Positions 37,417 to 54,128 of a stretch of DNA of 64,000 bases are shown here, piece by piece. A program made the translations under genes and the position numbers. How positions within the stretch are numbered: the first letter of the stretch is position 1; each line of letters begins with the position of its first letter. The notes under the pieces are model-generated. The model worked only from the letters and a program-made list of their open reading frames with translations, did not search any database and was not told the origin of the DNA. Location of the stretch: positions 62,001-126,000 of the forward strand of contig JAISJD010000050.1 in the NCBI GenBank assembly GCA_031261705.1. Direction: 5' to 3'. The stretch comes from Lactobacillales bacterium (lineage in GTDB: Bacteria; Bacillota; Bacilli; Lactobacillales; Streptococcaceae).

Positions 37417-38685
37417 TCATTCTTCCTCAACAGTTAATTCTCGATTTAATAAATAATTTTCTCCTTGAAGAACATCAAAATACGCTGCTTTTCTGACTAA
37501 ACAGTCGTAATCCTTTTTCATGATACGAACAGTTGGATTTTGACTAAATAAGCTGGTATGCCTAATCTTTACCCGAGCTTCGATTCTCTTACATTCATCT
37601 AGCGACATATGAAGTTCCTTGATTCCCTCGGCTTGTTTAAGATTATAGACTCTTTCATATTCATAATCCCAATCATAGGGAGAAATTGACATTTGCGCAT
37701 GCTCGGCGACCAATTCTTGATTAAGTTTCCACGTCTGTTCCAAAAATCTTGCTTTTTGAATTAGCCTTGTGTACCTAAATACATCAATTTTAAGAAGCTT
37801 ATGCTCGTTTTGTTTTTTCTTTTCTTTCTTAGATAAGGTCTGAAGTCCATTGGAAAGTAGTTCTATTTCCATTTGTTCAATAATTAATTCTAGCTTTTGA
37901 TTTGTTAAAGTTAGGCGCTCTTTTGCTTGTTTCTCAAGATATAGACTTTCTTTATAATATAGAAGTTCTCGATTACTTTCAGGCATCTCTTTAATTTCTG
38001 GTTCAACTTCTTCTGTGATTGTAGGCTGACTTTTAACTTCACTAGTCATAGTTTTACCCTCTTCTACATCACTGAAAATTTCAACTTCTTCGACTTCTTC
38101 AACTTCTTCAACTTCTTCAACTTCTTCAACTTCTTCAACTTCTTCAACTTCTTCAACTTCTTCAACTTCTTCAACTTCTTCAACTTCTTCAACTTCTTCA
38201 GAGAAATTTTGCGCAATATCGGCAATCTTTTCAACAAAAAAGCGGGAATAATCTTCTTCTACCATTGAAAATTGCTGTTCCAAAGAAGTTCGCAAATGTA
38301 TAGAATATGGAAATTCACCATAACTAGAGGCTAATGGGACGAACTCAAAGAGGTAAAGACTTTCATTCTCAAATTCTACCTTTCTCCCACTAACCCATAA
38401 AAATTGCGGAAAATACATCATCAATTCTTGTAAAAATTGTTGCCAATCAAGCTCTAAGGAGGTCAATTGAATCTGAATATGCCTTAAAAAAGAACCTACT
38501 TTTTGTAATTCTTCAAAATGCTTGACTAACTCTGGACGAGAACAAGGAGTATCCATTTTTTTCTCGTCATCAATTCCCTCACAAACACAGCAAAGACCGA
38601 TAAATAAATCCTCTTCAAACAATATTTTTCCTAAGGGCATTGCTGGCGTAGAATACAGCTCTACTTTAATGTTTTGAGTTTTCAT
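37417..38685 (-). CDS. Uncharacterised protein with 13 tandem EEV triplets and coiled coils
   Basis: No family recognised. Residues 1-160 look globular, with a Cys pair (LCCVC) and aromatic segments; no signal peptide or membrane span. Residues 163-201 are 13 copies of Glu-Glu-Val encoded by a 9-bp tandem repeat, an extremely acidic spacer. Residues 235-420 are helical, rich in Lys, Glu and Leu, and likely coiled coil (YKESLYLEKQAKERLTLTNQ). The ATG has an AAGGGAAGG site. It lies 36 bp after the DivIVA-like gene on the same strand, so the two probably form an operon and perhaps a complex. Confidence 0.75.
   Translation of the reverse strand: MKTQNIKVELYSTPAMPLGKILFEEDLFIGLCCVCEGIDDEKKMDTPCSRPELVKHFEELQKVGSFLRHIQIQLTSLELDWQQFLQELMMYFPQFLWVSGRKVEFENESLYLFEFVPLASSYGEFPYSIHLRTSLEQQFSMVEEDYSRFFVEKIADIAQNFSEEVEEVEEVEEVEEVEEVEEVEEVEEVEEVEEVEEVEEVEIFSDVEEGKTMTSEVKSQPTITEEVEPEIKEMPESNRELLYYKESLYLEKQAKERLTLTNQKLELIIEQMEIELLSNGLQTLSKKEKKKQNEHKLLKIDVFRYTRLIQKARFLEQTWKLNQELVAEHAQMSISPYDWDYEYERVYNLKQAEGIKELHMSLDECKRIEARVKIRHTSLFSQNPTVRIMKKDYDCLVRKAAYFDVLQGENYLLNRELTVEEE
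38083..38199 (-). repeat. 13 x 9-bp in-frame tandem repeat
   Basis: Thirteen consecutive 9-bp units GAAGAAGTT on the coding strand, identical except for one base in the second unit from the 3' end (GTC in place of GTT). Because the unit is a multiple of three, slippage changes the length of the EEV spacer without shifting frame. Confidence 0.95.
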
Positions 38686-38721
38686 GAACCTTCCCTTTCA
38701 CTTTAAAACCTCTAATCAAGG

Positions 38722-39498
38722 TTACATCAACCATAGATTATCTTCTTTTTTATTCTTTTCATCACCAACTATCTGTTCCGTTTTGCGAACGAGTTGATTG
38801 TATAACATTTTTGAATCCTCCTGTGAGCGAAGTAGACGTTGGTAGTAGTCCTCTGCCTCATGCTTCAAGAGATGCAAATCTTCCTTTGCCGTGCCAATAA
38901 TTTTATCCGCTTGCGTATGGGCATCTGTAAGAATACGTTTTGACTCATACTTTGCCTCTGAAACGATTTTATTCGCCTGTTCCTTTGCCTTACCAACCTG
39001 AACATGAGATTCTAGCTTTGCTTGATTCACCATATTTTTCGATTGCTCTCTAGCAACAACTAACACATCAGCAATCTGTTCTTTTTTCGTTTCCTGCTCA
39101 CTTAATTTTCTTTCTGCCTCCTCTAATCTTTCCTCTAACGAACGAGTATACTCCTTGTCCTCTTTGGAAGAAAAATTTCCTGAAAACATTAATCGGTCAA
39201 TTTCTATTTGCTTATTTTCAACTTCGTGGCGCAGATGTTCTACCTGTCTATTCAGCCATTCATTTTTATTAATAAGCTGCTCATTTCCATTGGATTTTGG
39301 TTTTTCTTCCATATCGTCCTCTGAGGAAGTAGCTGATTTAGGTCGCTCAGACTTATGTTTTTTTTCCTTTGGAGCTTTCTTTTTTGGAAGAAACTCTTCC
39401 ATATCATCTTCCTCTTCTTCATCAAAATATTCGTCAAATTCTTCATCATCAAAGTCAAAATCAAAATCATTTTTCTTACTTTTCTTTTTTCCAAACAT
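38722..39498 (-). CDS. DivIVA-tail-like coiled-coil protein
   Basis: A 258-residue cytoplasmic protein. Residues 1-80 are strongly charged, first basic, then acidic (DDEEFDEYFDEEEEDDMEEF), then Lys-rich. Residues 80-240 form a long coiled coil whose pattern (IADVLVVAREQSKNMVNQAK, KIVSEAKYESKRILTDAH) closely resembles the tail of DivIVA/GpsB-family polar scaffold proteins. The DivIVA N-terminal membrane-binding motif is absent. A GAGAGG site precedes the ATG. It leads a two-gene unit with the EEV-repeat protein. A scaffold role is inferred from coiled-coil similarity only. Confidence 0.7.
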   Translation of the reverse strand: MFGKKKSKKNDFDFDFDDEEFDEYFDEEEEDDMEEFLPKKKAPKEKKHKSERPKSATSSEDDMEEKPKSNGNEQLINKNEWLNRQVEHLRHEVENKQIEIDRLMFSGNFSSKEDKEYTRSLEERLEEAERKLSEQETKKEQIADVLVVAREQSKNMVNQAKLESHVQVGKAKEQANKIVSEAKYESKRILTDAHTQADKIIGTAKEDLHLLKHEAEDYYQRLLRSQEDSKMLYNQLVRKTEQIVGDEKNKKEDNLWLM

Positions 39499-39777: not shown

Positions 39778-40884
39778 TTAAGACATCTTACTGGCTGTTT
39801 CTTCTTTAGCAATCATCCGATTTGCCATGAAAATTGCCACAAATACTGCGGTAATTCCACCGACTAATTTTCCGACAATCACTGGAAAAAGGACTTCTTT
39901 AGCTACTCCGGCAATAAAACCTAAATGGTCTCCAAAGACGAACGCCGCTGATACCGCAAAGGCGACGTTAATCACCTTTCCTTTTTTATCCATGTCCTTC
40001 ATCATTTGAAACATCGGAATATTATTTGCCAGTGTAGCGACCATACCAGCCGCAGCAACCTCATTTATGCCAAGTAGCGCTCCAAGCTTCATCAGTGGTC
40101 GATTGAAAATCTTGGTAATGACCTTCACCATGCAGAATGCTCCAGCTAAGGTTAGAGCAATGTCTCCCACGGTACTAATTCCCTCCTGTACAGGTGTAAT
40201 TCCTTTGATCGGTCTTACACCAATCAATAAATCCATCGCCCCGAGAACTAGACCAATCACCGCAATAATCACTACTCCCTTACCAAAAATAGTAAACCCC
40301 TTAATCATTTTACTAGGAATTAACCACAGTCCAACCATTACCAAGACCGCAAATAACACAATCGGCACTAAGTTTTTCAAAAGCATCATCAGTGGCATTT
40401 TCGCCACCAATCCGCCTACCAAGCAACCAATTGGAATAGTAATCATGCCACTAAGTACACCCGTCGCAAGGTAAGGCTGATCGTCCTTTTCGATAATATT
40501 TAACCCAACCGGAATGGTGAAAACAATTGTTATCCCCATCATTGACCCTAAAATCGTTCCCGCAAACAAACCGGCTTGTGGATCAATCGCTATTTGTTTT
40601 GCCAATGCGAAGCCACCCATATCACATGCAAATAAAGTGCCTGCAAAAATGGAAGGATCTGCTCCTAAAAATTTATAAAGCGGAACAACGACAGGGCTTA
40701 AAACATTGGCTAACACAGGAGCTAGCACAATAATCCCAATCATTGACATCGCCAATGTTCCCATGGTATGAATACCCTCTTCAAATTCCTTCGCTAATCC
40801 AAGTTTTCCACCGATACATTTATCCAGTCCACCAAGACAAAGAAAGAAAACGATGATATACATAATCACTTCATTAATATTCAC
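39778..40884 (-). CDS. eutH: EutH-family ethanolamine permease, isolated
   Basis: EutH is a membrane permease thought to bring ethanolamine into the cell. The 368 residues show about ten to eleven spans, with family-like segments LGGLDKCIGGKLGLAKEFEEGI, GTLFACDMGGFALAK-type and MVATLANNIPMFQMMKDMD. The start is a GTG with a GAAAGGA site. No other eut genes (ammonia lyase, microcompartment shell, EutVW) are in the window. It sits 47 bp after the small gene that ends the surface-protein cluster, same strand and without an obvious terminator between, so readthrough is possible. Confidence 0.85.
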   Translation of the reverse strand: MNINEVIMYIIVFFLCLGGLDKCIGGKLGLAKEFEEGIHTMGTLAMSMIGIIVLAPVLANVLSPVVVPLYKFLGADPSIFAGTLFACDMGGFALAKQIAIDPQAGLFAGTILGSMMGITIVFTIPVGLNIIEKDDQPYLATGVLSGMITIPIGCLVGGLVAKMPLMMLLKNLVPIVLFAVLVMVGLWLIPSKMIKGFTIFGKGVVIIAVIGLVLGAMDLLIGVRPIKGITPVQEGISTVGDIALTLAGAFCMVKVITKIFNRPLMKLGALLGINEVAAAGMVATLANNIPMFQMMKDMDKKGKVINVAFAVSAAFVFGDHLGFIAGVAKEVLFPVIVGKLVGGITAVFVAIFMANRMIAKEETASKMS

Positions 40885-40931: not shown

Positions 40932-41081
40932 TTAAAGCTCATTTCTATTCTTTTTTATATACTGTTCATCACATTGATGTAGCCATCGTTTTCTATCCCT
41001 AAGGCTCCCCACCGCAATTAAAGACCATATAAAAATTTGAAGCATTATGATTATCATCAAACTACTAATTACAAAAATCAT
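40932..41081 (-). CDS. Uncharacterised 49-residue single-span membrane protein
   Basis: A short gene starting at ATG 41081, 14 bp after the stop of the large lectin-type surface protein. It encodes one hydrophobic span (residues 2-26, with IIIMLQIFIWSLIAVG) followed by a basic, cytoplasm-type tail (LRDRKRWLHQ) and a Lys/Asn-rich end. The ribosome site (GGAAG) is very close to the start, so the start may be slightly later. Context and codon pattern support it moderately; no family recognised. Confidence 0.5.
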   Translation of the reverse strand: MIFVISSLMIIIMLQIFIWSLIAVGSLRDRKRWLHQCDEQYIKKNRNEL

Positions 41082-41095
41082 TCTTCCACTACTTT

Positions 41096-43924
41096 CTATT
41101 CTTTTGAGCTAATTACTTTAGGAAGCAACTCAAAATTAATCATGATTACTCCCTTATAAATATCTACTTTCTTGAAATTCTCTTTTGGTGCTTTTAAAAA
41201 GAAATCATATGAAGTATTCTTTTTGCTTAACACCGTCAAATGTTCCAATTCTTTTAAAGGAATTTGATTCGACTTATACACCTGTAAATCAATTTTATCT
41301 CCTTCACGACTTTCCAACGGTAAAACATTCATTGTATCTACTTGAATATCTACATCTGATACACCGTTATAGCTTACTTTTCCAATTCCTTGAACCATTT
41401 TATCCCTTTTTTCTAAAGAAATATTTTCTGGAACACTAACATAAGCCAATGGTTCCTCAATAATAGTAATAGTTACTTTCACTTTGGATTCAACACCTGT
41501 TGCCTTACTTCTAATATTGACATTTACAGAAGTCATTCCGGGATCATCAAAGACTTTTTCCTCATCAAAACCTAGAACCTCCACTGTATCAAAAACTAAC
41601 ATACTCTTTAGATTTGTCACTAACTTACTTGCGTCTAAATCTTTTGTTGAACTTACTCTTTTAACTACTGTATCAATGCCTTCTCCTGTTGGGGGTTGCA
41701 TCGTGACTGAAGCAACGGTCTTTGATACTAAATCCTTACCATTATAAAGACTTACAGGAATTTCAAAGTTTTCATTGTCAGAATTATATAGATCAAGTAA
41801 AGTTTTATTTGTTGTAACTAAAGGGACTTCGATATTAAAAGTAACTTCTTTATCTCCATTTTCCTCGGAAAATTGTTGTAAATCTTCTTTCGATAATTTC
41901 ATTAAAAGTTGCTTACTATTATTAAGATTAGAATAAGTTTTTGAAATCACTTCTTCTAACATTTGCTCAGAAGAAGAAACTGTAACATTCTCATCAGATA
42001 AATCAATAGCATATTTACTTAAATCAATTGTCCAAGACAAATCTTCATAGCTATCAGTAAAAATCTGTTTGGGCAAGAATTGCTTTAAAGAAACTGATAT
42101 TTTTTCGCCTTTTGTGTCTATATTTCCTTTAATACTTCCTGGTGGATAATCTACTTTATCCTTAATAATATTCATATTAATTTTTAGACTAACAGTTTTA
42201 TAATTAAAAGTTATTGTATAAGTTCCCGTAGTTATTGAATCACCTGGTTTTGGCAGCCCATCTATATTTATATCTACTAAATTAGGGTTTTCAGATTCAA
42301 GTAAATTTTCATTATTTACTTCGTATAGTTCGAGATCCGAATCATTAAGAATATAACTTTTTAAATCAGCTACTGTTTTAGGATAAAATGATTTTCTTAT
42401 ATTAATATCTTGAGCTTTCAATAAAAAATCTGAATTGCTTGCCGTTTTCTCATTTTCATAAACGACAAACATAGGGATAGTTAAGTCAGCAGTATTATTC
42501 ACTTCATCCGATAAAGTCAACACAAAACTAGTTGGTCCATATTTTTTTGCTTTTTCCTTTATATCTTCTATATCTTTAAAATTTATAGATATAGCTTCTT
42601 TTGAGCTGATATCATCTTCATAACTTTTCAAAATATTAGCTTTAGGTGATTCCAATAAACTATTAGAGTCATCTTTTTTAACCACTTGAATATTTCCTAC
42701 ACCTTTTGGGGGGGAACTATCAACAACAAATTCTCTTTCTTTTCCTTGACTATCAGTGTAATTATCCGCATTGACAATACTAGTAATTTTAAATTTATCA
42801 AAAGAATATAAGTCTTTTAATTTCACCTTAAACTTTATCTTTACTTTATTTGAAGCTAAATTTAAATTTGGTAGTTCAACTTGCAAACTATTTCCAGAAA
42901 TTGTTGGTACAACATTTTCTCCATTAATTGAAAAAGTGTCAGAAATATACTCTATCCCCCCTGGTAATGGAAATTCAATATGAGGATTATTAAAATCATA
43001 CTTTCCGCCAGCATAAACACCTTCATATTCTATTAATAATTCAGAATCACTTTTTACTTTGTCTGATAGCTCCAAATTATTAGATGTATCGAAAATCTTT
43101 AACGTATCATCGTAATATATTAACCCAGGAACAGAATAAAACGCGACTTGCGCTTGCTCAGAAATTTCTCCTGTAGATCCAGTAAATCCCCAATATACTT
43201 GTTTAGCATTACAAAATATGCTATAGGGAATTTTTACTGAGACCCAATCCAAATCTCCATATTTATAAGAGAAGATTCCACCAGTGTCATCAATAGGCTC
43301 CCACGAAATTAAAAATCTCGTCCAAGTATTAGTGTTCAATTTTGTGTATTGTAAATTATTATGCACAACTGCGCGTGCCCCAGTTGAAACTTTTTTATAT
43401 GTGCTAGCTTCACCTGGAAACGCATTTGCAATATGACTGCCTCTATCTGAATAATAATCTGTAGAACGAAAATTAACATAGGTATCAAATTCAACTACAA
43501 AAGAGCAATAAAAACAATTTGCCATCGTACCATTAGTGTAGAAAGTATCTGCATATACACCTAAATTTTCACCTAAACTCCCACTAAATTCTGTAACTTT
43601 CCAATCAAGAGCATGCATGATAAAAGTCAATCCGTCAGCATTCCCATTAATTTTTAGGTACATTTCAGCATTAGATTTTTTTGTTAAATCTAATCGAAAA
43701 TCCTTATTGGAAAAAATAGAGCCAATTTGAGATGGCAAATTTTTTGTAACGGTAACAATATTATTTGAAACAGAGCTATCAGCTCCTTTGGGTACAGAAA
43801 AAATACCTTGCAAAGGAAGAAAATTATCTGGATTTACTGTTTCTTCTGATAAAGCAGTTATTTTAAAATGACCAAGAAAAACGAAAAAAAAGAAAAGGAA
43901 AAAGAAATTTTTTAATTTATTCAT
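41096..43924 (-). CDS. Large secreted protein with L-type lectin-like domain (WxL-cluster protein)
   Basis: A 942-residue exported protein. A signal peptide (1-25) is followed by an L-type (legume-like) lectin domain at about 40-275, marked by ADGLTFIMHALDW, VVEFDTYVNF, HIANAFPG and YWGFTGSTG. Then come Ig-like segments (one with GPTSFVLTLSDEVNNTADL), a unit with LKQFLPKQ and LSKYAIDLSDENV, a MQPPTGEGID module, and a C-terminal beta domain (from AYVSVPENISL to DIYKGVIMINFELL). There is no WxL motif and no sortase motif, unlike most lectin-type WxL proteins. Its C-terminal 330 residues are related to those of the 44490 and 46997 genes. Probably binds host or wall sugars while held by cluster partners. 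Confidence 0.8.
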   Translation of the reverse strand: MNKLKNFFFLFFFFVFLGHFKITALSEETVNPDNFLPLQGIFSVPKGADSSVSNNIVTVTKNLPSQIGSIFSNKDFRLDLTKKSNAEMYLKINGNADGLTFIMHALDWKVTEFSGSLGENLGVYADTFYTNGTMANCFYCSFVVEFDTYVNFRSTDYYSDRGSHIANAFPGEASTYKKVSTGARAVVHNNLQYTKLNTNTWTRFLISWEPIDDTGGIFSYKYGDLDWVSVKIPYSIFCNAKQVYWGFTGSTGEISEQAQVAFYSVPGLIYYDDTLKIFDTSNNLELSDKVKSDSELLIEYEGVYAGGKYDFNNPHIEFPLPGGIEYISDTFSINGENVVPTISGNSLQVELPNLNLASNKVKIKFKVKLKDLYSFDKFKITSIVNADNYTDSQGKEREFVVDSSPPKGVGNIQVVKKDDSNSLLESPKANILKSYEDDISSKEAISINFKDIEDIKEKAKKYGPTSFVLTLSDEVNNTADLTIPMFVVYENEKTASNSDFLLKAQDINIRKSFYPKTVADLKSYILNDSDLELYEVNNENLLESENPNLVDINIDGLPKPGDSITTGTYTITFNYKTVSLKINMNIIKDKVDYPPGSIKGNIDTKGEKISVSLKQFLPKQIFTDSYEDLSWTIDLSKYAIDLSDENVTVSSSEQMLEEVISKTYSNLNNSKQLLMKLSKEDLQQFSEENGDKEVTFNIEVPLVTTNKTLLDLYNSDNENFEIPVSLYNGKDLVSKTVASVTMQPPTGEGIDTVVKRVSSTKDLDASKLVTNLKSMLVFDTVEVLGFDEEKVFDDPGMTSVNVNIRSKATGVESKVKVTITIIEEPLAYVSVPENISLEKRDKMVQGIGKVSYNGVSDVDIQVDTMNVLPLESREGDKIDLQVYKSNQIPLKELEHLTVLSKKNTSYDFFLKAPKENFKKVDIYKGVIMINFELLPKVISSKE

Positions 43925-43928
43925 AAAC

Positions 43929-44450
43929 CTATTCCCCCTTTAATACAGTCAATTCAAAGGAAGTTGTTGTTCCTGAAAGACGAGTTTGATTATCTGAAAA
44001 TCCTAACATTTCTAACTTAATCTTATGCTTCCCAACTGATAAGCCTTTAGGCAGCGGTACCTCTGTTACTGCTTTCCCGGGTATCACAATATCTGTCTTG
44101 AGAAGAGGAGACTTTTCATCATCTAAATAAACAATAAATTGAATATTCCCATGATTGAATGATGGATTGACTAGCGCTATTGCGAGCTTTTCCGTTCCCT
44201 CTAAAATACTCATATTCCCATACCCTGGGAATGTAATTGTATCTTTTTCCGAAATAATTGGTTTCTTTATTGCTGACTTATAAGAAATCGCACGTTTATC
44301 TTCTTTTACTGCTTCCTCTGATGGTTCTTTTTTTGATAAAAGAGAATAAGTAATTAAAGGAAGAACAAGTAATAAGAGAATAATACTTCCTATAAGTATT
44401 CTCGTTTGATATTTTTTTAAAAATTGTTTCATTTTCATATTATTTCTCAT
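43929..44450 (-). CDS. Membrane-anchored extracytoplasmic protein of the surface cluster
   Basis: A 173-residue protein with a basic start, one N-terminal membrane span (about 16-37, LIGSIILLLLVLPLITYSLL) and an outside beta-rich domain (TITFPGYGNMSILEG, LVNPSFNHGNIQFIVYL, GLSVGKHKIKLEMLG). It resembles small type-II membrane proteins common in WxL clusters. It lies 4 bp from the lectin-type gene and 39 bp from the 44490 gene. It may hold the large proteins near the membrane; that is inference. Confidence 0.7.
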   Translation of the reverse strand: MRNNMKMKQFLKKYQTRILIGSIILLLLVLPLITYSLLSKKEPSEEAVKEDKRAISYKSAIKKPIISEKDTITFPGYGNMSILEGTEKLAIALVNPSFNHGNIQFIVYLDDEKSPLLKTDIVIPGKAVTEVPLPKGLSVGKHKIKLEMLGFSDNQTRLSGTTTSFELTVLKGE

Positions 44451-44489
44451 CGCTTTTTTCTCCCAATTTCTATCTTTTCTATGTCATCA

Positions 44490-46955
44490 TCACAGTTTAA
44501 ACAATTTGAAGTTAATCAGCATTTCTCCTTTATAAATATCTACCTTTTTAAAATTATTTTTTGGTGATTTTAAAGAAAAATTATACGAGATATTATCCTT
44601 ATTTAATATCGTTAAGTGTTCATTTTCTTTCAGTAGAGTATTATCATTTTTATAAATCTCTAAATTCACTTTATCTGTACTTGTATTAGTTAATGTAACT
44701 TGATTTGCTGTGTCCACTAAAATATTGACATCTGATTCTCCTGTGTAGCTTACAGTTCCTATTCCTTCAACAAATTTATCACCAATTTTTTTCAATTCAA
44801 TTTTTTCTGATACCGTAACATAAGCTAATGGAGCTTCATAAACCATAACAGGAACGCTAATTGTTGACTCTACTCCGGTTTCTTTACTTTTTACAAGCAC
44901 CTCAGCCGTAGAATCGCCCATTTTATTAAAGATTTTTTCTTCTTTAAATCCAATAACCTCTACAGTATCAAAAGGAAGCATGCTTTTTAAATTTTTTACA
45001 AGACTTTTTGGATCTAAATCATTTGTTGAGCTTCCTTTATTTACACTTTGTGCAATGGCTTCACCAGTTGGTGGCTTCATTTTCATTAAAGCAAGTTGAT
45101 CATCTACTAAGGTCATGTTTTCATTATATAATTTAAGAGGAATTTCAAAATTTTGAGTTTCTGCATTATAAACTTTTAGTAAATTTTTATTGGTCATATC
45201 TACTGGTATTTTTAAATTAAAAGGTGTAAATATACCCATTAAAAACGAATATACCCATTTTTCCCATATGTTTTTTTGAACCATTATACGTAATTGCTGT
45301 CTTCCACTAGAAGAGGATAAAAAATCAATTTTAGAGTCAGTAATAGCGTTCGAATAATTCGAAGTAATGGTTAAATTAGTTTTATTTAAAGGGATAGTAT
45401 ATTCACTTAAATCAGCTATAAAGGTCACATCTTCATACTTTTCAACATCCTCCTGTTTATATACAAATTTTTTTAAATAAGCACGTAACATTCCATCATT
45501 ATCAACATTTCCCACAATTTGCGAGGGAAAAGATTCTACAGGAATAGGAATTGGCACGATATATTGGAAAAAAGCTATACTCGCAATATTTTGCACATTC
45601 AAGGAAAAACTAGAATTAAGATTTCCGTATAAATAAGAAAATGAAAAAGTATTGCTCTCGTCTTTTATAAAATTCATTGTGTATTTATCAGAAAAGTTTG
45701 TCCCTTGTATATTAGCAAAATCAAAAACTGCCGGAGAGTTAAAAATTATATTTTTAAGAGAAAGGTTGCTAGTGCTAAACGTTGTTCCTTTTGCTGGACG
45801 TCCTTTAATTATCGAAAATAATACATTTAAATTTCGATTCTGAATTGGTTGATTATTACCATCAAGAATTTCAAAATCAAAGTGGACACTGCTTGGATTA
45901 TCAAAAGATATTCCATTTTGGCTGTCATCAATCGGATTTAGAGTTAAAGGAGTCTCATTTTTTAGTGTCATCGCTAACTTTATAAATTTCCTTTGATAGT
46001 AACCCATTTGACCGATAATTAATTTATCGGATGGATTGAGCGTTACTGGCGTATTTCCTGACCACTTGTAGGAGTTACCTGTATTTTCTACTATGTCAAT
46101 ATCTCGATCTAAATGATTTCCATAATATCTCAGAACAATTAAATCCTTTAGATATTTTGGATCAATTTTATTTTGTGTAATATTCCCTTTCGAGTCAGCA
46201 ATAGTGGTAAATAAACCATTTAAGATAGGTACCGTCCCAGTTGGTGGAGTAACTGTCATTTTTGGAGATACTTTAGCAGTAGAACTTCCATAAAAAGTAC
46301 AGGTATACGAAAAAGAATATGTTCCTTGTTCAGGAAATAAAGGGATATCGTTGTAAGCTAATTTTATATCCAACTTTGAATCTGGTACACCAATCAAAGT
46401 ATCCCCAACTCTATAATATCCTTCGATATTTGCTCGTTTATTAATGTAATCCTCTATAGGTGTGCCAGTAAAAGTATCTTGTGGTATGCTGAAATTTTCA
46501 CCTTTCAACAAATAGCCTCCCGTAACAGTTACTACATCATTTTTCCCTTTCACATACAAAGGTATCTCAACATCTGTTGTGTTTTGAGCTTCATCTATCA
46601 TTGTTAGGTAAAAACTAGTAGGCCCTGGCTTACTAATTTTTTTTCTCATAGACTGGAAAGTGTCAATTAATCTGAAATAAATTTTATCTTTTGGAGATAC
46701 ATTATCATAATAGTATTCCATGAAATATTTATATAAATTATCATCATAAAAATAACTTATATCGTCTTGATCAACTACAAGTAATTTCCCTCTTCCAGTA
46801 GGACCTTGCGTATCAGCATACAATGATTTTGTTAGTTTTGTATCACTCATTTGCTTAGCTAAAGTAGGAGTTCCTAAACAAAAACAAAACGAAAACAAAA
46901 AACACATTTTTATAATATTTTTAAATAACGAGAGTTTTGTCAACATTTTTTTCAA
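44490..46955 (-). CDS. Large secreted surface protein, paralogue 2
   Basis: An 821-residue exported protein with a signal peptide (hydrophobic stretch ending LGTPTLAKQ, about 34). It contains an Ig-like segment shared with the lectin-type protein (KPGPTSFYLTMIDEAQNTTDVEIP), a middle region resembling the 46997 protein (DLIVLRYYGNHLDRDI, then YTMNFI), one copy of the module starting KMKPPTGEAIAQ, and the C-terminal domain ending VDIYKGEMLINF. No WxL, LPxTG or membrane anchor is seen. It starts with an AAAGGA-type site and lies 41 bp after the next paralogue. Confidence 0.75.
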   Translation of the reverse strand: MKKMLTKLSLFKNIIKMCFLFSFCFCLGTPTLAKQMSDTKLTKSLYADTQGPTGRGKLLVVDQDDISYFYDDNLYKYFMEYYYDNVSPKDKIYFRLIDTFQSMRKKISKPGPTSFYLTMIDEAQNTTDVEIPLYVKGKNDVVTVTGGYLLKGENFSIPQDTFTGTPIEDYINKRANIEGYYRVGDTLIGVPDSKLDIKLAYNDIPLFPEQGTYSFSYTCTFYGSSTAKVSPKMTVTPPTGTVPILNGLFTTIADSKGNITQNKIDPKYLKDLIVLRYYGNHLDRDIDIVENTGNSYKWSGNTPVTLNPSDKLIIGQMGYYQRKFIKLAMTLKNETPLTLNPIDDSQNGISFDNPSSVHFDFEILDGNNQPIQNRNLNVLFSIIKGRPAKGTTFSTSNLSLKNIIFNSPAVFDFANIQGTNFSDKYTMNFIKDESNTFSFSYLYGNLNSSFSLNVQNIASIAFFQYIVPIPIPVESFPSQIVGNVDNDGMLRAYLKKFVYKQEDVEKYEDVTFIADLSEYTIPLNKTNLTITSNYSNAITDSKIDFLSSSSGRQQLRIMVQKNIWEKWVYSFLMGIFTPFNLKIPVDMTNKNLLKVYNAETQNFEIPLKLYNENMTLVDDQLALMKMKPPTGEAIAQSVNKGSSTNDLDPKSLVKNLKSMLPFDTVEVIGFKEEKIFNKMGDSTAEVLVKSKETGVESTISVPVMVYEAPLAYVTVSEKIELKKIGDKFVEGIGTVSYTGESDVNILVDTANQVTLTNTSTDKVNLEIYKNDNTLLKENEHLTILNKDNISYNFSLKSPKNNFKKVDIYKGEMLINFKLFKL

Positions 46956-46996
46956 ATCCTTTTATTTCCGAAATTTTAATCCTATTATGATAGTAA

Positions 46997-49555
46997 CTAA
47001 TTAAGCAACTCGAAGTTAATCAGCATTGCCCCTTTATAAATATCTACCTTTTTAAAATTCTCTTTTGGTGCTTTTAAATGAAATTTACAAGAATTATTCT
47101 TTTGGCTTAAAATCGCCAAGGGCTCTCCATCCTTTAATGGAAGTTGATTAGATTTATACACCTGCAAGTCAACCTTATTTGACTCGCGGCTTGTTATTGG
47201 TAAAACATTTATAGTATTCACCTGAATATTGACATCTGCCATCCCTGTATAATTTATTGTTCCCAATCCGTGAACAATATTATTCTCCTTTTCTAGCTCA
47301 ACACTTTTCGGTACTGTAATATATGCTAGTGGATTTTCAACTACAGAAATGGGTACATTAATTACAGTTTCTAAAGAGGTCAGCTTACTTCTAATTAATA
47401 CGTTTACTGAAGTATTGCCAACTGTATCAAATGTTTTATCTTTATCAAAACCAACAGCTATCACCGAATCAAAAGATAACATACTTTTTAACTCTGTAAC
47501 TAACTCATTAGGTTTTAAATCTTTAGTTGAAGTCCCTTTATTCACAGTTTTAGTCAATGCCTTTCCTGTAGGTGGTTGCATTTTTACAAAAGACGTACAA
47601 CTCCCTACCACGCCTGTCTCATTTGATAATGTAAGAGGAATCTCAAAATTCTGAGTGCTTGGATTATAAACATTTATCAAATTAGGATTATCTATGTCTA
47701 AGGGTGCTTTGATAACAAATAACGCCTCGCTGTTCCCATTTTTTTCAGAAAATTTTTCTATATCCTCTTTTTTTAACCTCAATAACAATTGTTTGAAGTC
47801 TTTTTGGTTAAGATAGCTTCTTATCAAGCTTTTATCTAAATTCCCCGTTAAACTATTAATAACAACGGTATCCTCCGTTAAACCCACAGAATAATTCTTA
47901 TAATTAAATCTCCAAATTAAATCCCTATAATAGTTTGGACTAGGTTGCTTTGGTAAAGATTGTTTAAATAGAAAAGTAATGTTTTTTCCACTCTCATCTT
48001 TCCCTTCAAAAATTTGAGGTGTTGGATAAGGGATGGGAAGAGGGTCAACAATAGTACTACAAGTGATAGGTACTGTAATTGTTGATTCAACACCAGTTAA
48101 CTTACTTTTAATTCCTACATCAACGCTTGTTTCGCCTATTTTATCAAAAAGTTTTTCTTCTTTAAATCCTGTTACTTCAACAGTATCAAAGGACAACATA
48201 CTTGTTAGATTTGTTACCAATTCATTTGGATTTAAATCTGCTGTCGAAGTACCCTTTAAAACTTTTTTAGGGATTGCCTTTCCAGTTGGAGATTGCATCC
48301 TAACTGAAGCATTCACTTCTTTTAATTTTTTCTTTTCATTGAATACCTTTACAGGTACTTTAAAATAGTTATCCTTTGAATTATATATTTTTAACAAGTC
48401 TTGATTATTTGTATCCAAGAATATTCCAACTGTGAAATTTATTTCTTGTCTATCCGTACTAATAAAATTCATAATATCTTCTTTATTAATTTTTAAAACG
48501 AATAACTTCGATCCATCTGCTGATGTTTCAAAATATCTTGAACATTTTTCTTCAATTGTTTTATCTTCAAAATTTAATTGAATGTTCGCATCACTTAAGG
48601 AGACCGCATATTTACTTAAATCAAATTTTAGATACCAGTCTTTATAGTAAGCATCATCCGCCTGCTTTTTTAATCCTTGTTTTACACCTAACTGAATAGT
48701 TTTATCTTCATTAATTTTTGAACTATCAAATCTTAAAAAATTTTCATAGAGTAAAGGTAACAAGATAGGAACATTATTCTCAAATAAATTAATTCTCGAA
48801 TAATCGCCTCTAATACTCCCACTAAAACCCACAGAACTCGCATTTTTAAATATAAAATTCATCTGATACTCTTTTCCAGATCGATTACCATTAAACGCCA
48901 GATTATATTTATAACTCTCTAAACCAAAAAAAACAACATTACTCCCAAAAAAAGATAAGTCACTTTGAGAAATTATACTTCTAGTATCTGTATTACCTGT
49001 AACACGAAAATTTTCTTGGTCATTAAAAACTGTCTTTTTAAATGGTAGTGAAATATTCGTAGTTGATGCGGGTAACTGTTTCATATTTTCATCATATAAA
49101 GTAATTGTAAATTCACTTAAAACATACTCCCCTATTCCTATTTGTACTGATTTAGTAGCTGAGGCGCAAGTAACATTAGCTGCAGAGTTAAAAATCATCT
49201 TAATTATAACGGGTTCACCCTGTAACCATGCCATATTATAAATGAGACAATAATCGCCCCTTCTTAATTTTACAAAACCAACACCAATTGGCCATGTTAT
49301 TTCTTTTCCATCAATAAATGGTTTTACATCTTTTTTAAGATTTTTTCCAAGATATTGAAATTGAACTAAATTAGAGAAGTCAACATCATTTATTGGGTTG
49401 CGTACAAAATCTCCTTTTTTGTTAACCGTTGCTGTGGTAGGATCATTTACAAAAGATTTATTAGTCGCATCTACATTTTTGCTTAAACAAAAAAAGCCGC
49501 TTAAAAAGAAGAAAGAAATGATGAAAAATTTCAAAAAAGCAACCTTAAATATCAT
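46997..49555 (-). CDS. Large secreted surface protein, paralogue 1, with internal tandem duplication
   Basis: An 852-residue exported protein with a signal peptide (1-30). Residues 275-500 and 515-738 are two copies of one unit, each with a KQ.L.KQ start, a Y.VGL/YAVSL strand, and a MQ.PTGKA module with GTST.DL and a LVT.L.SMLSFD segment. The C-terminal domain (740-852, AYITVPKSVEL to DIYKGAMLINFELL) matches the other two paralogues. The N-terminal region resembles the middle of the 44490 protein. No WxL or sortase motif. Likely a long adhesin or structural surface protein. Confidence 0.75.
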   Translation of the reverse strand: MIFKVAFLKFFIISFFFLSGFFCLSKNVDATNKSFVNDPTTATVNKKGDFVRNPINDVDFSNLVQFQYLGKNLKKDVKPFIDGKEITWPIGVGFVKLRRGDYCLIYNMAWLQGEPVIIKMIFNSAANVTCASATKSVQIGIGEYVLSEFTITLYDENMKQLPASTTNISLPFKKTVFNDQENFRVTGNTDTRSIISQSDLSFFGSNVVFFGLESYKYNLAFNGNRSGKEYQMNFIFKNASSVGFSGSIRGDYSRINLFENNVPILLPLLYENFLRFDSSKINEDKTIQLGVKQGLKKQADDAYYKDWYLKFDLSKYAVSLSDANIQLNFEDKTIEEKCSRYFETSADGSKLFVLKINKEDIMNFISTDRQEINFTVGIFLDTNNQDLLKIYNSKDNYFKVPVKVFNEKKKLKEVNASVRMQSPTGKAIPKKVLKGTSTADLNPNELVTNLTSMLSFDTVEVTGFKEEKLFDKIGETSVDVGIKSKLTGVESTITVPITCSTIVDPLPIPYPTPQIFEGKDESGKNITFLFKQSLPKQPSPNYYRDLIWRFNYKNYSVGLTEDTVVINSLTGNLDKSLIRSYLNQKDFKQLLLRLKKEDIEKFSEKNGNSEALFVIKAPLDIDNPNLINVYNPSTQNFEIPLTLSNETGVVGSCTSFVKMQPPTGKALTKTVNKGTSTKDLKPNELVTELKSMLSFDSVIAVGFDKDKTFDTVGNTSVNVLIRSKLTSLETVINVPISVVENPLAYITVPKSVELEKENNIVHGLGTINYTGMADVNIQVNTINVLPITSRESNKVDLQVYKSNQLPLKDGEPLAILSQKNNSCKFHLKAPKENFKKVDIYKGAMLINFELLN

Positions 49556-49696
49556 TTAAAATCTCCTCCTTATTTTTGGCTATCATAGACCTTTCACAAA
49601 TATCAAAAAAACGTAAACTCAATATTTTATCCACTAAGACTAGGGTTAGACAGTAAGATCTTATTACAAACTTGTAAATCCCCATTAAGTCCTCTG

Positions 49697-50200
49697 TTAT
49701 AAAGGTTTAATCGTATAAGTCAATAAATCCTCATAAATTCCAATGTTTTTTTCAGCAACCGATGTAGAACCTAACCTAGCATAACCATTAATCATTGGTT
49801 GGGTTTTACTTAATGTTCCTAGTTGATTTGCCACATTTGTCACGCCTTGTTCATTTCCCTCTGAATCAAATCTCACTAGACGATAGGCGATACTTAAAAA
49901 ATCGTCGCTCTGTGTAAGCTTAAAATTATTTTTCGAGCTAACATTGACTTGAACAGATTTATCCCCTGAATATATCTTTCCATTCAAATCAAACATGGTA
50001 ACCGTGGTATTCAATAGGTAATTTTTTTTAGTGAAAACCAAGTTTGAGGGAACCGTCACAATATACTCTGGCTGTTCAATCACCTCTGCATTCCAATAGG
50101 TAATACCAATCTCTTTTTTGATCTCTTCAGCGAAAAAACACTTTGGCATTAAAAATATCTCTAGTATCAATATAAATAAAAGAAGTTTTTGTTTTTTCAC
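49697..50200 (-). CDS. Small secreted protein resembling the paralogues' tail domain
   Basis: A 167-residue protein with a signal peptide (1-24, ending CFFAEE). The mature part begins YIVTVPSNLVF and ends IGIYEDLLTYTIKPL, the same pattern as the C-terminal domains of the three large paralogues (YITVP... to DIYKGAMLINFEL). This suggests a stand-alone copy of that beta-sandwich domain, of the kind that ends many WxL and pilin-like proteins. It may bind or cap the large proteins. It lies between the WxL gene and paralogue 1, 127 and 141 bp away. Confidence 0.65.
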   Translation of the reverse strand: MKKQKLLLFILILEIFLMPKCFFAEEIKKEIGITYWNAEVIEQPEYIVTVPSNLVFTKKNYLLNTTVTMFDLNGKIYSGDKSVQVNVSSKNNFKLTQSDDFLSIAYRLVRFDSEGNEQGVTNVANQLGTLSKTQPMINGYARLGSTSVAEKNIGIYEDLLTYTIKPL

Positions 50201-50327
50201 TGAAGATTCTCCTCTCTTTTTCCTTCATACCCTGTATTCTCTTAATAAGTATCTTGAGACAATAACTCTCTAACCAATCTAATATTTTTGTATTTATTAA
50301 TTTTTCATTTCAAAACTATGTCTTATC

Positions 50328-51044
50328 CTATACTGCTAAATCATCCATTGTCCAAATGACTTGACCACTATATGATTTTCCTTGTGCTTTTGAACTATCC
50401 ATAACAGTTAGTTTTACATCGGTAAGTTTTGTAGCTACACCACCAGTAATATCATTTTTAGCTTTTTTCTCTAAAATTGTTTTACCAGTTGTATTACCAG
50501 CTTCAAGCACAACAGCTTCTTGCGAACCATCACCAACAGTAATTCCAGATCCTGGATTTAATGTACCAAGTGCACCTGGTGATTCAGGTAGATTTGGAAT
50601 AAAGTCGTTGGTTTCTGGGTCGATGGCATCACCAATATTGTATGATTGCGCTGTGCCTAAAACAAATGACACGTTAGATGCCAATTCATCTTTCCCGTCA
50701 GCAGTTGATAATTTAGTGAACTGAGCACTTAATTTCCAAGCAGTTGATTCTGCTGATGAACGGTCATCATTGGCAACAATATATTGATTTCCTTCAACCT
50801 TATTATTAAAAGTTGCTTTGTTTGCTAAAGCTTTTTGTTCACCAAACATAAATTTTGACGGTTTCCAAATAAGTGACAAGTTTCCTTTAAAGGGACCGGT
50901 TTCCCCGGGGTTTACTGGTCCATCTGATTTGAAGCTTACGCCAACATCGGTTTTATCGTTTTTTTGTACTGCGCTTGCTGGCGCAGCAATCATCATCATT
51001 GCTGATGATGATAATAATAATGTAATTAAAAGTTTCTTATTCAT
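50328..51044 (-). CDS. WxL-domain surface protein
   Basis: A 238-residue exported protein consisting of a signal peptide (1-25, ending APASA) and a single WxL domain. Seen motifs are TAWKLSAQF (the WxL motif) and the terminal VIWTMDDLAV, with the usual NPGETGPFKGNLSLIW start. WxL domains bind peptidoglycan non-covalently in Gram-positive bacteria. This is the only WxL protein in the cluster and corresponds to the small CscB-type member. It may dock the larger partners to the wall with the DUF916 protein. Confidence 0.92.
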   Translation of the reverse strand: MNKKLLITLLLSSSAMMMIAAPASAVQKNDKTDVGVSFKSDGPVNPGETGPFKGNLSLIWKPSKFMFGEQKALANKATFNNKVEGNQYIVANDDRSSAESTAWKLSAQFTKLSTADGKDELASNVSFVLGTAQSYNIGDAIDPETNDFIPNLPESPGALGTLNPGSGITVGDGSQEAVVLEAGNTTGKTILEKKAKNDITGGVATKLTDVKLTVMDSSKAQGKSYSGQVIWTMDDLAV

Positions 51045-51123
51045 TTTTTTCCCATCCTTTTAAATACATCCATATAGATTGGTGATAGTTATTGTATCAA
51101 GATACTTATTTTCTTAGAGTAAT

Positions 51124-51357
51124 CTAATACAGAAGTTCTATCTGTTCTTTGATTAAATTAAATAGAAAAACAACCAAGCCCAAGCTGGCTAGTGTTAATC
51201 CAATAAAACTAAAATTTAATAGTAATTTACTTTTGCCGTAACGTAATCTTTTTAGTAGAAAAATATCTCTTGATAAAGTTACTAAAAAGAAAATTAGTGT
51301 GACAATTGCTACTCCTCCTAAAAGGAATATCCAAAGGTAATCCATCATTCTTTTCAC
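51124..51357 (-). CDS. Small two-span membrane protein of the WxL cluster
   Basis: A 77-residue protein with two hydrophobic spans (about 7-27 and 47-67) joined by a basic loop (LLKRLRYGKSKLLLN). No recognised family. Its ATG overlaps the stop of the upstream sortase-type gene (ATGA), so the two are coupled. Function unknown. Confidence 0.7.
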   Translation of the reverse strand: MKRMMDYLWIFLLGGVAIVTLIFFLVTLSRDIFLLKRLRYGKSKLLLNFSFIGLTLASLGLVVFLFNLIKEQIELLY

Positions 51358-51695
51358 CCGCCCTCGTATGGTCTAAGCCATAACGACTTATAACTAAATA
51401 TAACAACAACAACAATCAAAAGAGAAAATCCTATAAGCATCCAGGTTACTGAAGTAATCAGCTCCCCAGTTGAAGGAAATTCTCCAGTGCTACTTGGTTC
51501 TTCCATTCCCGGTAAAGTATCTTGAGGCTCGAAAGGTTCTTTCGCCCCATGATTTACTGGTATCTCATCCTCGCCCTGCATAAAAGTGATATTTAAATCA
51601 CTTTTATTCTCTCTACTAGCTGCTTGAGTTTTTTCTCCTATTAAAAAATTAACACCCATAAGCATAAACAATAAAGGTATGAGATACTTTTTCAT
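51354..51695 (-). CDS. Small sortase-anchored protein (CscD-like)
   Basis: A 113-residue exported protein with a signal peptide (1-24), a short polar mature part, then FPSTGE followed by a hydrophobic span and a positively charged-type tail (RPYEGG). FPSTG is a variant of the LPxTG sorting motif. WxL clusters usually include one such small sortase substrate. It lies 4 bp after the DUF916 gene. Confidence 0.85.
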   Translation of the reverse strand: MKKYLIPLLFMLMGVNFLIGEKTQAASRENKSDLNITFMQGEDEIPVNHGAKEPFEPQDTLPGMEEPSSTGEFPSTGELITSVTWMLIGFSLLIVVVVIFSYKSLWLRPYEGG

Positions 51696-51699
51696 ATCA

Positions 51700-52773
51700 T
51701 CACTCCGCTTTCTTCTTCTTCATCTTTCTTGCTTTTCTAATTTTCCATAGTCTAAATCGCCAAATTTTTTCTAATTTTTTTCGTCTGACTATGAAGAAAA
51801 TAATTAGTCCAAACAATAGAACAAATTCTCCAATCGTTACCCATTTAATCCAAGCTGGGGTAACAATCTTATAATCAGATTCTTTATTTAATTTCGAAGC
51901 TTGATCCCCTGTAATGATAAATTCTTTCGTAAACTTCCAGTCTTTATACTCGTTGTTTGCGGTTAATGTCAGCACATAGGTTCCTGATTTCACCGCCGTG
52001 GTTCCTAAGTCCATTTCAAAATCAAATTGACTATTCGGCGCAATCATATAATTTTCCACTTCTTTTTTTAATATTACTTTGTGTGTTTTTTGATCTTTAA
52101 TTTCTGCGGTAATTGCTAAGTTTGAAATAATTTTAGGGTCAGGATTTTCCAATCCCGCTAAAACCATTTTCTTTCCACGCTTGATAGATGTTTTTACTTC
52201 TTTTAAATTTAATGTTTGACCATTTTTAAATTCATCTCCTGTTTCAGAAGTAATGATTCCTACTCGATAAGCAAACTTATTTGTTAATTGTTCATTTTCG
52301 TCTGCGTTATCTAATTCAAAAACTAGCGCCCCCATTTTGACTCCTTGATAAGAATTTGCTGGAGGAGTTAGCTTAAATTTCGCTATTTTTTCTTCAAAAT
52401 CCTTTACTGTAATACTTGGCGTTTCTACCTTCACAAGAGAACTAATCGGCTGCTCTAGCAAAGGATTTTTTTCCTTTTGAGGTTCTCGATACTCAATCGT
52501 CCCACTGTCACCTGTAAAGGCATCTGTCACATAAATTTTTACTTTAATTGGTTCTTTCTGTGTACTTTTTACTTTTACTTCAAGCTCTTGCTCTTCTCCT
52601 GGAGTCGTCTGAATGTAAAAGAAGGTTTTTTGTGGGTCAATCTGTTTACTATTTATCTTTGCTGAAACTGTGTAGCCCAGATTAGAGGAACCCTCCGCAA
52701 GTGCCGTCTTTGATATGCCAAAGCAAAAAAAACTCGTGAATAAAATACTGAATAAAAATGTTCTTACTTTCAA
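51700..52773 (-). CDS. DUF916/DUF3324 WxL-associated membrane protein (CscA-like)
   Basis: A 357-residue protein with a signal peptide (1-26), an N-terminal DUF916 domain (YTVSAKINSKQIDPQKTFFYIQ start), a DUF3324-type domain (about 175-300), a membrane span (about 312-333) and a basic cytoplasmic tail. In WxL systems the DUF916 part binds peptidoglycan and the second part engages WxL proteins or host ligands. It starts at a TTG with an AAAGGAAA site and leads the cluster. A MITE-like repeat lies 63 bp upstream of the start. Confidence 0.9.
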   Translation of the reverse strand: MKVRTFLFSILFTSFFCFGISKTALAEGSSNLGYTVSAKINSKQIDPQKTFFYIQTTPGEEQELEVKVKSTQKEPIKVKIYVTDAFTGDSGTIEYREPQKEKNPLLEQPISSLVKVETPSITVKDFEEKIAKFKLTPPANSYQGVKMGALVFELDNADENEQLTNKFAYRVGIITSETGDEFKNGQTLNLKEVKTSIKRGKKMVLAGLENPDPKIISNLAITAEIKDQKTHKVILKKEVENYMIAPNSQFDFEMDLGTTAVKSGTYVLTLTANNEYKDWKFTKEFIITGDQASKLNKESDYKIVTPAWIKWVTIGEFVLLFGLIIFFIVRRKKLEKIWRFRLWKIRKARKMKKKKAE

Positions 52774-53197: not shown

Positions 53198-53246
53198 AGA
53201 AACAGCCTTACTAAAACCATTGCTACGGCTTTAATAAGACTGTTTT
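53198..53246 (-). terminator. Terminator after the LysR gene at 53247
   Basis: A long stem (AAACAG, CTTA and AAA segments pairing across 53200-53245) abuts the LysR stop codon. T-rich sequence follows on the minus strand. Confidence 0.6.
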
Positions 53247-54128
53247 TTAATGACTTGTTCTTTGGAAACTTTCTTCCATTCTCAAAATGAAATCTGTCGT
53301 TGGATTACTTGTTAAATAAATGAAATTTAACATTTTAGCTTCAAACTCATAGCCAAAATCTAACTTTTTAAGCGTCCCTTCTTCTAATTCCTTCTCCACA
53401 CATACATCAAATAAAAAAGAAATTCCAACATTGCTTTCTACCACTCGTTTAATTAAATCTATACTTCCTAGTATTGTTTGATTTTTAAAACTACTTAGCT
53501 CAATTTGTTCATTAGCAAGGATGGTTTCAAAGGACGACCTTGTCCCAGAGCCCGGTTCTCTGATGATGATTTGTTTATTAAACAGATCTTGAAAGCTGAC
53601 CTGCTTATCTGCCAATTCAAAATCAGGAGAACATATCCCGACAATTCTCGCTTCTTTATAAGGAATACTTGAAAATACACGCTGATTAAAATCTCCCTCA
53701 ACAAAAGCCCCATCAATTTTTCCTTGAACTAAATAATTCACCAAAGTTTCTGTATTTTCTACTAATACATTTAAGCGAAACCCTTTTTCCTTGTGAAACA
53801 TGTCAATGAAAAATGAAGGTACAAGATAGTCACTAATAGATAAAGTGCAACCTAAATTAACCTTAGTAAAATTAATTTCACCTAATTCTTCTAAAGTTTT
53901 TTTAGAAAAATTTTCCATCCATAACAGTTTGTTATAAAGATAACGTCCTTCTTCTGTTAAAGATAACTTTTTGTTCTTATAAATAAATAATTTGGTGTCA
54001 AGCTGGTCTTCCAAATAAGCAATATGTTGACTAACAGCAGGCTGACTCATATTCATTAATTCCCCTGCACGTGTATAGTTCAACGTCTTACATACAGTTA
54101 AAAATGTTTCATAATGATAATCTAACAT
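53247..54128 (-). CDS. LysR-family transcriptional regulator
   Basis: A 293-residue LysR regulator. The winged helix-turn-helix is at residues 1-60 (FLTVCKTLNYTRAGELMNMSQPAVSQHIAYLE) and the effector domain starts near residue 90. This N-terminal type is close to CysB/YeiE-like members. Divergently from it the only candidate target is the doubtful reading frame at 54463, so its real target may have been lost or lie elsewhere. It has its own terminator. Confidence 0.9.
   Translation of the reverse strand: MLDYHYETFLTVCKTLNYTRAGELMNMSQPAVSQHIAYLEDQLDTKLFIYKNKKLSLTEEGRYLYNKLLWMENFSKKTLEELGEINFTKVNLGCTLSISDYLVPSFFIDMFHKEKGFRLNVLVENTETLVNYLVQGKIDGAFVEGDFNQRVFSSIPYKEARIVGICSPDFELADKQVSFQDLFNKQIIIREPGSGTRSSFETILANEQIELSSFKNQTILGSIDLIKRVVESNVGISFLFDVCVEKELEEGTLKKLDFGYEFEAKMLNFIYLTSNPTTDFILRMEESFQRTSH

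Follow-up and report, generated by a model that had tools for sequence, protein, structure and literature searches.

The closest described systems are the WxL (csc) clusters (PMC1534035, PMC9772566, PMC10599100), in which WxLIP, small WxL and small LPxTG-like genes accompany large multi-domain proteins with a lectin-like N-terminus and a CscC-type stalk. A large WxL protein is stated to be present in all csc clusters (PMC9772566), and in the predicted complex an inserted strand of WxLIP completes the WxL sandwich (PMC10599100). Also of relevance are the archaic pilins of the SCPU family (PF05229), e.g. CsuA/B, and the tip adhesin CsuE (PMC4654587, PMC9452303). We analyzed a WxL-type gene cluster at positions 40932–52773 of a 64,000 nucleotide stretch, here termed the window, from a Lactobacillales bacterium (assembly GCA_031261705.1, contig JAISJD010000050.1, positions 62,001 to 126,000). 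Its three large proteins end in a domain, termed T, which is also found as a free-standing protein in the same cluster and which appears related to archaic pilins, and the cluster in addition encodes a membrane-held immunoglobulin-like (Ig) protein, termed A. To our knowledge, donor-strand pili and their chaperones are regarded as a Gram-negative trait.

The window cluster resembles csc clusters in all the gene types named above, and also in the logic of a membrane-anchored Ig protein combined with a C-terminal beta domain. The definition of a csc cluster otherwise applies, with a CscD score below the cut-off, but no large protein of the cluster has a WxL domain. A further difference is that the cluster adds a second, non-WxL pair of proteins (173 and 167 amino acids), and this pair also occurs without WxL genes.

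Large protein 1 (L852, 852 aa) is encoded at window positions 46997..49555 of the minus strand, as are all features of the cluster given below. It displays two CscC-type stalk modules and its T domain is at 46997–47356. Large protein 2 (L821, 821 aa) is at 44490..46955 with a C-terminal T domain at 44490–44858. Large protein 3 (L942, 942 aa) is at 41096..43924; it has a T domain at 41096–41476 and an N-terminal L-type lectin domain at residues 39–262 (PF18483, 76.9 bits, just below the cut-off of 78.3). In all three proteins a hydrophobic stretch is present at the N-terminus only. There is no LPxTG near the C-terminus, no C-terminal WxL and no membrane span there, and the Pfam WxL family (PF13731) is not matched. 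The last ~320 residues are 43%–50% identical between the three, and the final ~110 residues differ from those of WxL-ended CscC proteins. Classical CscC proteins from other families share this stalk module and end in a normal WxL domain (e.g. LTWTLEDTP-type ends). The large proteins are CscC-like surface proteins in which the WxL2 C-terminus has been replaced by a T domain, i.e. a domain swap. An earlier note on this DNA, made from the sequence alone, had described the three biggest products as sharing a C-terminus that lacks a WxL pair, LPxTG and a membrane span, and the Pfam, motif and hydrophobicity checks agree with this description. A search for the large C-terminus in viral contigs, and by a pattern scan of genome contigs, gave no match, and no relative was found among 295 genomes of the same family. 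A decayed T-like fragment of the large-protein type, with stop codons, is present elsewhere in the genome (L004:420-575, G000:C48; E-value = 0.0026).

The free-standing T protein is 167 aa in length (49697..50200) and consists of a signal peptide and a pilin-like beta domain. Profile-profile comparison of the large C-terminal domain with the family of this protein gives a probability of 90.8%–92.5% over 115–116 columns. The same domain gives 0.5% with the small-WxL (WxL1) profile and 11.7% over 27 columns with the large-WxL (WxL2) profile; a second comparison with WxL2 gives 8% over 51 columns. In this test WxL1 and WxL2 find each other at 98.8%, and 60 column-shuffled profiles reach at most 0.5%. 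Thus the C-terminal domain and the 167 aa protein belong together, since the 90.8% match compares with 0.5% or less for shuffled profiles. The earlier note had considered that structure prediction might reveal a degenerate WxL domain at this position. Such a recognizable degenerate WxL is not supported by the profiles (below 12%), and the predicted fold matches pilins (pLDDT, the predicted local distance difference test, 93.5). A remote common origin of T and WxL may nevertheless be reflected in short stretches that align at the start and end of the domains.

The T fold was predicted with AlphaFold2 for the C-terminal 119 aa of L852, using an alignment of 18 sequences. A Foldseek search with this model places CfaB first (E-value = 7.4e-4), followed by Caf1, one chitin-binding domain and CsuE. 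With a structural aligner the top 17 rows are all chaperone-usher pilin domains and the first unrelated row has a Z of 7.3. The model superposes on CsuA/B with Z 8.6 (3.4 Å over 107 residues) and on self-complemented CsuA/B with Z 8.5 (2.7 Å over 108 residues). The solved WxL chain 9i25_A is not among the structural matches listed for the model, which says nothing either way on kinship with WxL.

Sequence profiles point in the same direction independently of the fold. The T/large profile, when compared with all Protein Data Bank (PDB) sequences, finds CsuA/B at an E-value of 2.5e-4 in an alignment that reaches the exact C-terminus. Against a set of archaic pilins taken from Acinetobacter plasmids the probability is 79% (48%–80% in 20 jackknives), and the score of 37.2 compares with 12.8 or less in 100 shuffles. 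In the archaic-pilin test classical E. coli pilins reach 6.5%, WxL2 1.4% and WxL1 0.4%. T compared with classical E. coli pilins gives 2%, yet in the right register. The possibility that WxL itself is a pilin was also considered; the values of 0.4%–1.4% for WxL1 and WxL2 against SCPU pilins give it no sequence support. In the Pfam search no window protein matches PF05229, and the best T relative, a clostridial protein, has 19.4 bits (E-value = 0.0014) where the cut-off is 22.4.

Several features at the chain ends are also reminiscent of pilins. T proteins have an extra N-terminal strand that precedes the core, and many of them close with a GxYxDtLxxTV-type motif at the last strand, where the chain ends. 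In the model T ends at the last (F) strand as pilins do, with no residues left for a G strand, and this would leave an open groove. The invariant cysteines of pilins are lacking: there is one cysteine in the L852 C-terminal domain and none in those of L821 and L942 or in the mature 167 aa protein. The classical pilin C-terminus, Gly at −14 and an aromatic residue at −2, is present in large proteins of Listeria and E. mundtii and absent from those of the window, and is not used here as evidence. From profiles and model together, the kinship of T, a Gram-positive domain, with the pilin domain of archaic chaperone-usher systems (SCPU, CsuA/B) appears fairly secure. The likeness lies in the predicted fold, the profile similarity and the end of the chain at the last strand, and CsuE resembles the window large proteins in having a receptor domain first and a pilin-type domain last. 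Unlike archaic pilins, T is from a Gram-positive organism, has no usher and no conserved cysteines, scores below the Pfam cut-off and is not known to polymerize.

The A protein (173 aa, 43929..44450) has a predicted N-terminal membrane helix at residues 3–39, preceded by a short cytoplasmic N-terminus, a linker, and a single extracellular Ig domain at residues 68–173 (AlphaFold2, pLDDT 89.3). The structural aligner places the N-terminal domains of the PapD-type chaperones SfaE and FimC on top (Z 8.4, 2.5–2.9 Å over 95–96 residues), and pilus chaperones fill 16 of the 50 rows. A differs from PapD-type chaperones (PF00345/PF02753) in having one Ig domain and not two, and in being fixed to the membrane by its N-terminal helix. 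It also has no sequence match to them, and the fold match is not unique among Ig folds. PapD_N has no match in the genome, and profile comparisons of A with E. coli and Acinetobacter chaperones give 2%–3%. The resemblance of the A model to pilus chaperones is therefore a lead, not a result. A is not homologous by profile to WxLIP (4%) or to T (2.6%), and matches of A to FliL-like NCBIfam entries derive from the membrane helix.

The A–T module is not confined to the window and recurs in many genomes. The A-family profile reaches Enterococcus-like genomes, an E. faecalis plasmid, an E. mundtii plasmid, Listeria monocytogenes, and distant Firmicutes which include Clostridia and Ruminococcus albus. 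A pattern scan of genome contigs with the 173 aa family gives three Enterococcus loci. Each of the 20 A-family loci has a T-type gene close to its A gene, adjoining it everywhere except in E. rivorum, where it is two genes away. Only four of the 20 loci (the window and loci L039, L041 and L043) carry WxLIP and WxL genes as part of one run; in the E. mundtii stretch such genes are found a few kilobases further on. The stretches with T-ended large proteins at loci L042, L050, L060 and L061 lack DUF916 and WxL genes altogether. In Bacilli the module is usually found with a large T-ended protein, and often with a small LPxTG-type or membrane protein; in some clostridial loci no large T-ended protein is encoded near A and T. 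The large partners vary: that of the E. faecalis plasmid has MucBP repeats (1.1e-208), and those of Listeria have DUF285/leucine-rich repeats (LRR; 5.1e-85). The C-terminus of the E. faecalis protein itself matches the 167 aa profile at 1.8e-24. E. mundtii and R. albus each have several T genes one after another. Both families, T and A, stay below every Pfam and NCBIfam cut-off, and the open papers that were searched gave no account of the pair.

The gene order CscA, CscD, 77 aa, WxL, 167 aa, large, 173 aa is found again in three further genomes (L039, L041 of Enterococcus rivorum, and L043), with homologues of the 173, 167 and 77 aa products present in each. The relative order of the 173 aa and large genes varies, and the identity of the small proteins is roughly 36%–51%. 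This recurrence argues that the cluster is not a chance arrangement. The source genome has six other WxL clusters whose large proteins end in WxL or WxL-like strands and which lack a 173/167-type pair, thus the window cluster is an exception within its own genome.

A Listeria monocytogenes locus (NZ_CP030101, about 2.05 Mb) has three DUF285/LRR proteins together with A, T and LPxTG-type genes; as in the window, large proteins with a T end are partnered there by A and T. Unlike the window, this stretch lacks WxL and WxLIP genes, and its large proteins are of the LRR and not of the CscC type; the genes are unannotated in the record. On the mobilizable plasmid of E. faecalis, L060:8331-13679 encodes T, A, a small LPxTG protein and a 1306 aa protein with mucin-binding repeats that ends in T and not in LPxTG. 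In the Ruminococcus albus plasmid pRUMAL01, the gene at L063:13376-14116 lies among consecutive T genes next to an A gene; its product is a secreted ubiquitin (PF00240, 7.8e-31) with a T-like C-terminus fused to it.

On balance we lean towards the view that A and T form a portable module which holds adhesins by beta-strand complementation, and that it is fused here to a WxL platform. The Ig domain of A would be held at the outer membrane face by the N-terminal helix, and the T domain would be completed by a beta strand donated from A, so that the large protein is tied to the membrane-bound A. In a variant of this scheme A would fill the groove of the free T, and the N-terminal strand of T would complete the large protein, as in a pilus tip. 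The large protein would then be similar to a tip adhesin, the 167 aa T protein an adaptor or short-fibre subunit, and A a chaperone or cap tethered to the membrane. The WxL, WxLIP and LPxTG-like proteins would form a parallel wall-bound platform. Strand complementation is the most economical reading because the T domain shares its fold with proteins that need a strand from a partner to become stable and a membrane-held Ig protein is always encoded close by. Anchoring of the large proteins by A and T is a strong inference, and we further infer the A–T contact, the strand donation, the direction of the chain and the adhesion. By analogy with CscC proteins, a lectin-bearing protein at the surface may bind glycans. 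The earlier note had proposed that small partners hold the large proteins. This agrees with the 173 and 167 aa proteins, a conserved set that extends to distant Firmicutes; for the 49 and 77 aa membrane proteins there is no such evidence, and the 77 aa gene follows WxL genes. If the proposal is true, it would explain how large surface proteins with neither LPxTG nor WxL, nor any other known anchor, are retained on the cell in Enterococcus, Listeria and others, and it would give candidate partners to two families that are below all Pfam and NCBIfam cut-offs.

A number of observations weigh against this proposal. The pilin Z of 8.6 is near the values that common beta sandwiches give. In the PDB profile search a Bap-type surface protein outscores CsuA/B, as two weak pieces. 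The large C-termini alone, which are too few, give only 2.7% against SCPU, and significance needs the T proteins included. For A, GH157 and GbpA domains tie with the chaperones (Z 8.1–8.3), the Foldseek ranking prefers other Ig-like folds, comparison with PapD by sequence profile gives 2%, i.e. is not recognizable, and the carboxylate-anchoring Arg of CsuC is not evident by eye. The usher (PF00577) was not found in the genome, which is 78.7% complete.

The position of the C-terminal domain in a CscC-type protein, on the same stalk modules as in WxL-ended CscC proteins, would also be expected if it were a strongly diverged WxL2 that has lost its tryptophans and still binds peptidoglycan and WxLIP, with the 173 and 167 aa proteins as accessories. 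The layout is similar, with a VP-x-I strand at the start and YxGxxxxxF/W-x-L at the end, and the short WxL2 alignments (11.7% over 27 columns, 8% over 51 columns) fall in with this. However, probabilities below 12% are far from the 98.8% of a true WxL1-WxL2 pair, the domain groups with T proteins and SCPU pilins instead, and T-ended large proteins exist in loci without DUF916/WxL genes (L042, L050, L060, L061). A diverged WxL2 is thus unlikely. The pilin fold and SCPU relation of T can be carried further, to an usher-free Gram-positive pilus in which A is a true assembly chaperone, T polymerizes by donor-strand exchange and the large proteins are tip adhesins. The N-terminal strand before the core in T proteins, the tandem T genes in E. 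mundtii and R. albus, and an adhesin with a C-terminal pilin-type domain, as in CsuE, FimH and PapG, are in keeping with such a pilus. However, the window has only one T gene beside three large genes, fibres have not been seen, the membrane-fixed single-domain A lacks the second domain and the carboxylate anchor of known chaperones, and no usher was found in the genome (78.7% complete); a pilus of this kind seems quite unlikely.

It is also conceivable that the large proteins are merely secreted or are held non-specifically, by charge or by contact of the stalk with the wall, and that the A–T linkage is unrelated, e.g. serves to signal or to sense envelope stress. The cytoplasmic part of A is limited to a short N-terminus, and the clostridial loci that have A and T without a large T-ended protein nearby would be accounted for. 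Nevertheless the large proteins carry a T-family domain at their own C-terminus, and several independent architectures place a T-ended adhesin beside A, which makes non-specific retention very improbable. The window cluster is not a chaperone-usher system, as it has no usher, no PapD match and no pilin cysteines, and it acts most like a cross of csc and chaperone-usher systems. More broadly, strand complementation by A and T could, as a tentative proposal, represent an uncatalogued, usher-free form of adhesin display across the Firmicutes, akin to archaic chaperone-usher pili, with an Ig partner, a pilin-like protein and T-ended adhesins (lectin, MucBP, LRR) joined by donor strands. WxL and WxLIP may then be a parallel system that operates by the same principle, and both would be combined in this cluster.

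The cluster is a ten-gene operon on the minus strand (52773 to 40932), whose open reading frames overlap slightly or are separated by short gaps. The order is CscA, CscD-like, 77 aa, CscB, 167 aa T, L852, L821, 173 aa A, L942 and 49 aa. The source genome (2.13 Mb, Lactobacillales-like) is the sole member of its genus among the genomes searched. CscA (WxLIP, 357 aa, 51700..52773) displays the DUF916 and DUF3324 domains (PF06030, 96.6 bits; PF11797, 123.9 bits; both over the cut-off) followed by a transmembrane segment at residue 307. It is a sequence relative of the solved EfmWxLIP1 (9i1y/9i25, E-value = 5.6e-25), and PDB entry 9i25 holds both WxL and WxLIP chains. CscB is a small WxL protein of 238 aa (50328..51044; PF13731, 46.9 bits, cut-off 25) in which the second motif is WTM. 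The presence of CscA and CscB, as in the earlier note, is thus confirmed. The note had also listed a sortase-type CscD. A small CscD-like protein is indeed present (113 aa, 51354..51695), in which an FPSTG motif is accompanied by a hydrophobic segment at the C-terminus, and it scores 43.9 bits with the NCBIfam EF0750_LPXTG model (NF053819), slightly below the cut-off of 47. It is likely to be a sortase substrate and not a sortase; the ten sortase-domain matches are all elsewhere in the genome.

The 77 aa membrane protein (51124..51357) has two hydrophobic stretches and is conserved in the WxL-containing versions of the cluster. In addition to those in L039, L041 and L043, a homologue is found at L104:2754-2990 beside another WxL cluster of the same genome (E-value = 2e-8), so the gene goes with WxL clusters and not with the A/T module. 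The last gene encodes a 49 aa membrane protein (40932..41081) and has AGTGGAAG, which resembles a ribosome-binding site, before its ATG. Its product has no homologue among the loci searched. All the products named in the earlier note exist as minus-strand open reading frames at the positions it gave, the 49 aa gene being only plausible as a real gene.

A terminator-like hairpin with a 20-pair stem and a T-rich tail is present on the minus strand at 53200..53245, between a LysR gene and CscA, and the operon most likely starts below it. The LysR-type regulator adjoins the operon at window positions 53247–54128, and three LysR paralogues flank the A/T cluster of locus L050. In L. plantarum a LysR regulator alters DUF916 gene expression (PMC9019972). 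Immediately downstream of the operon, at 39778–40884, is a 368 aa multi-spanning membrane protein that is EutH-like by eye; the gap is 47 bases and the gene may be co-transcribed. The gene pair at 37417–39498 encodes a 258 aa coiled-coil-like protein and a 422 aa protein. Counterparts of the pair lie next to a different WxL cluster of the source genome (L101 10274-12225; E-values 5e-54 and 7e-86) and, in E. rivorum, next to a short T-ended gene (L040 11962-13968), and because of this the pair may belong to these surface systems. The 422 aa protein displays a long EEV repeat tract (window 38064–38237), which is a candidate for length variation from strain to strain.

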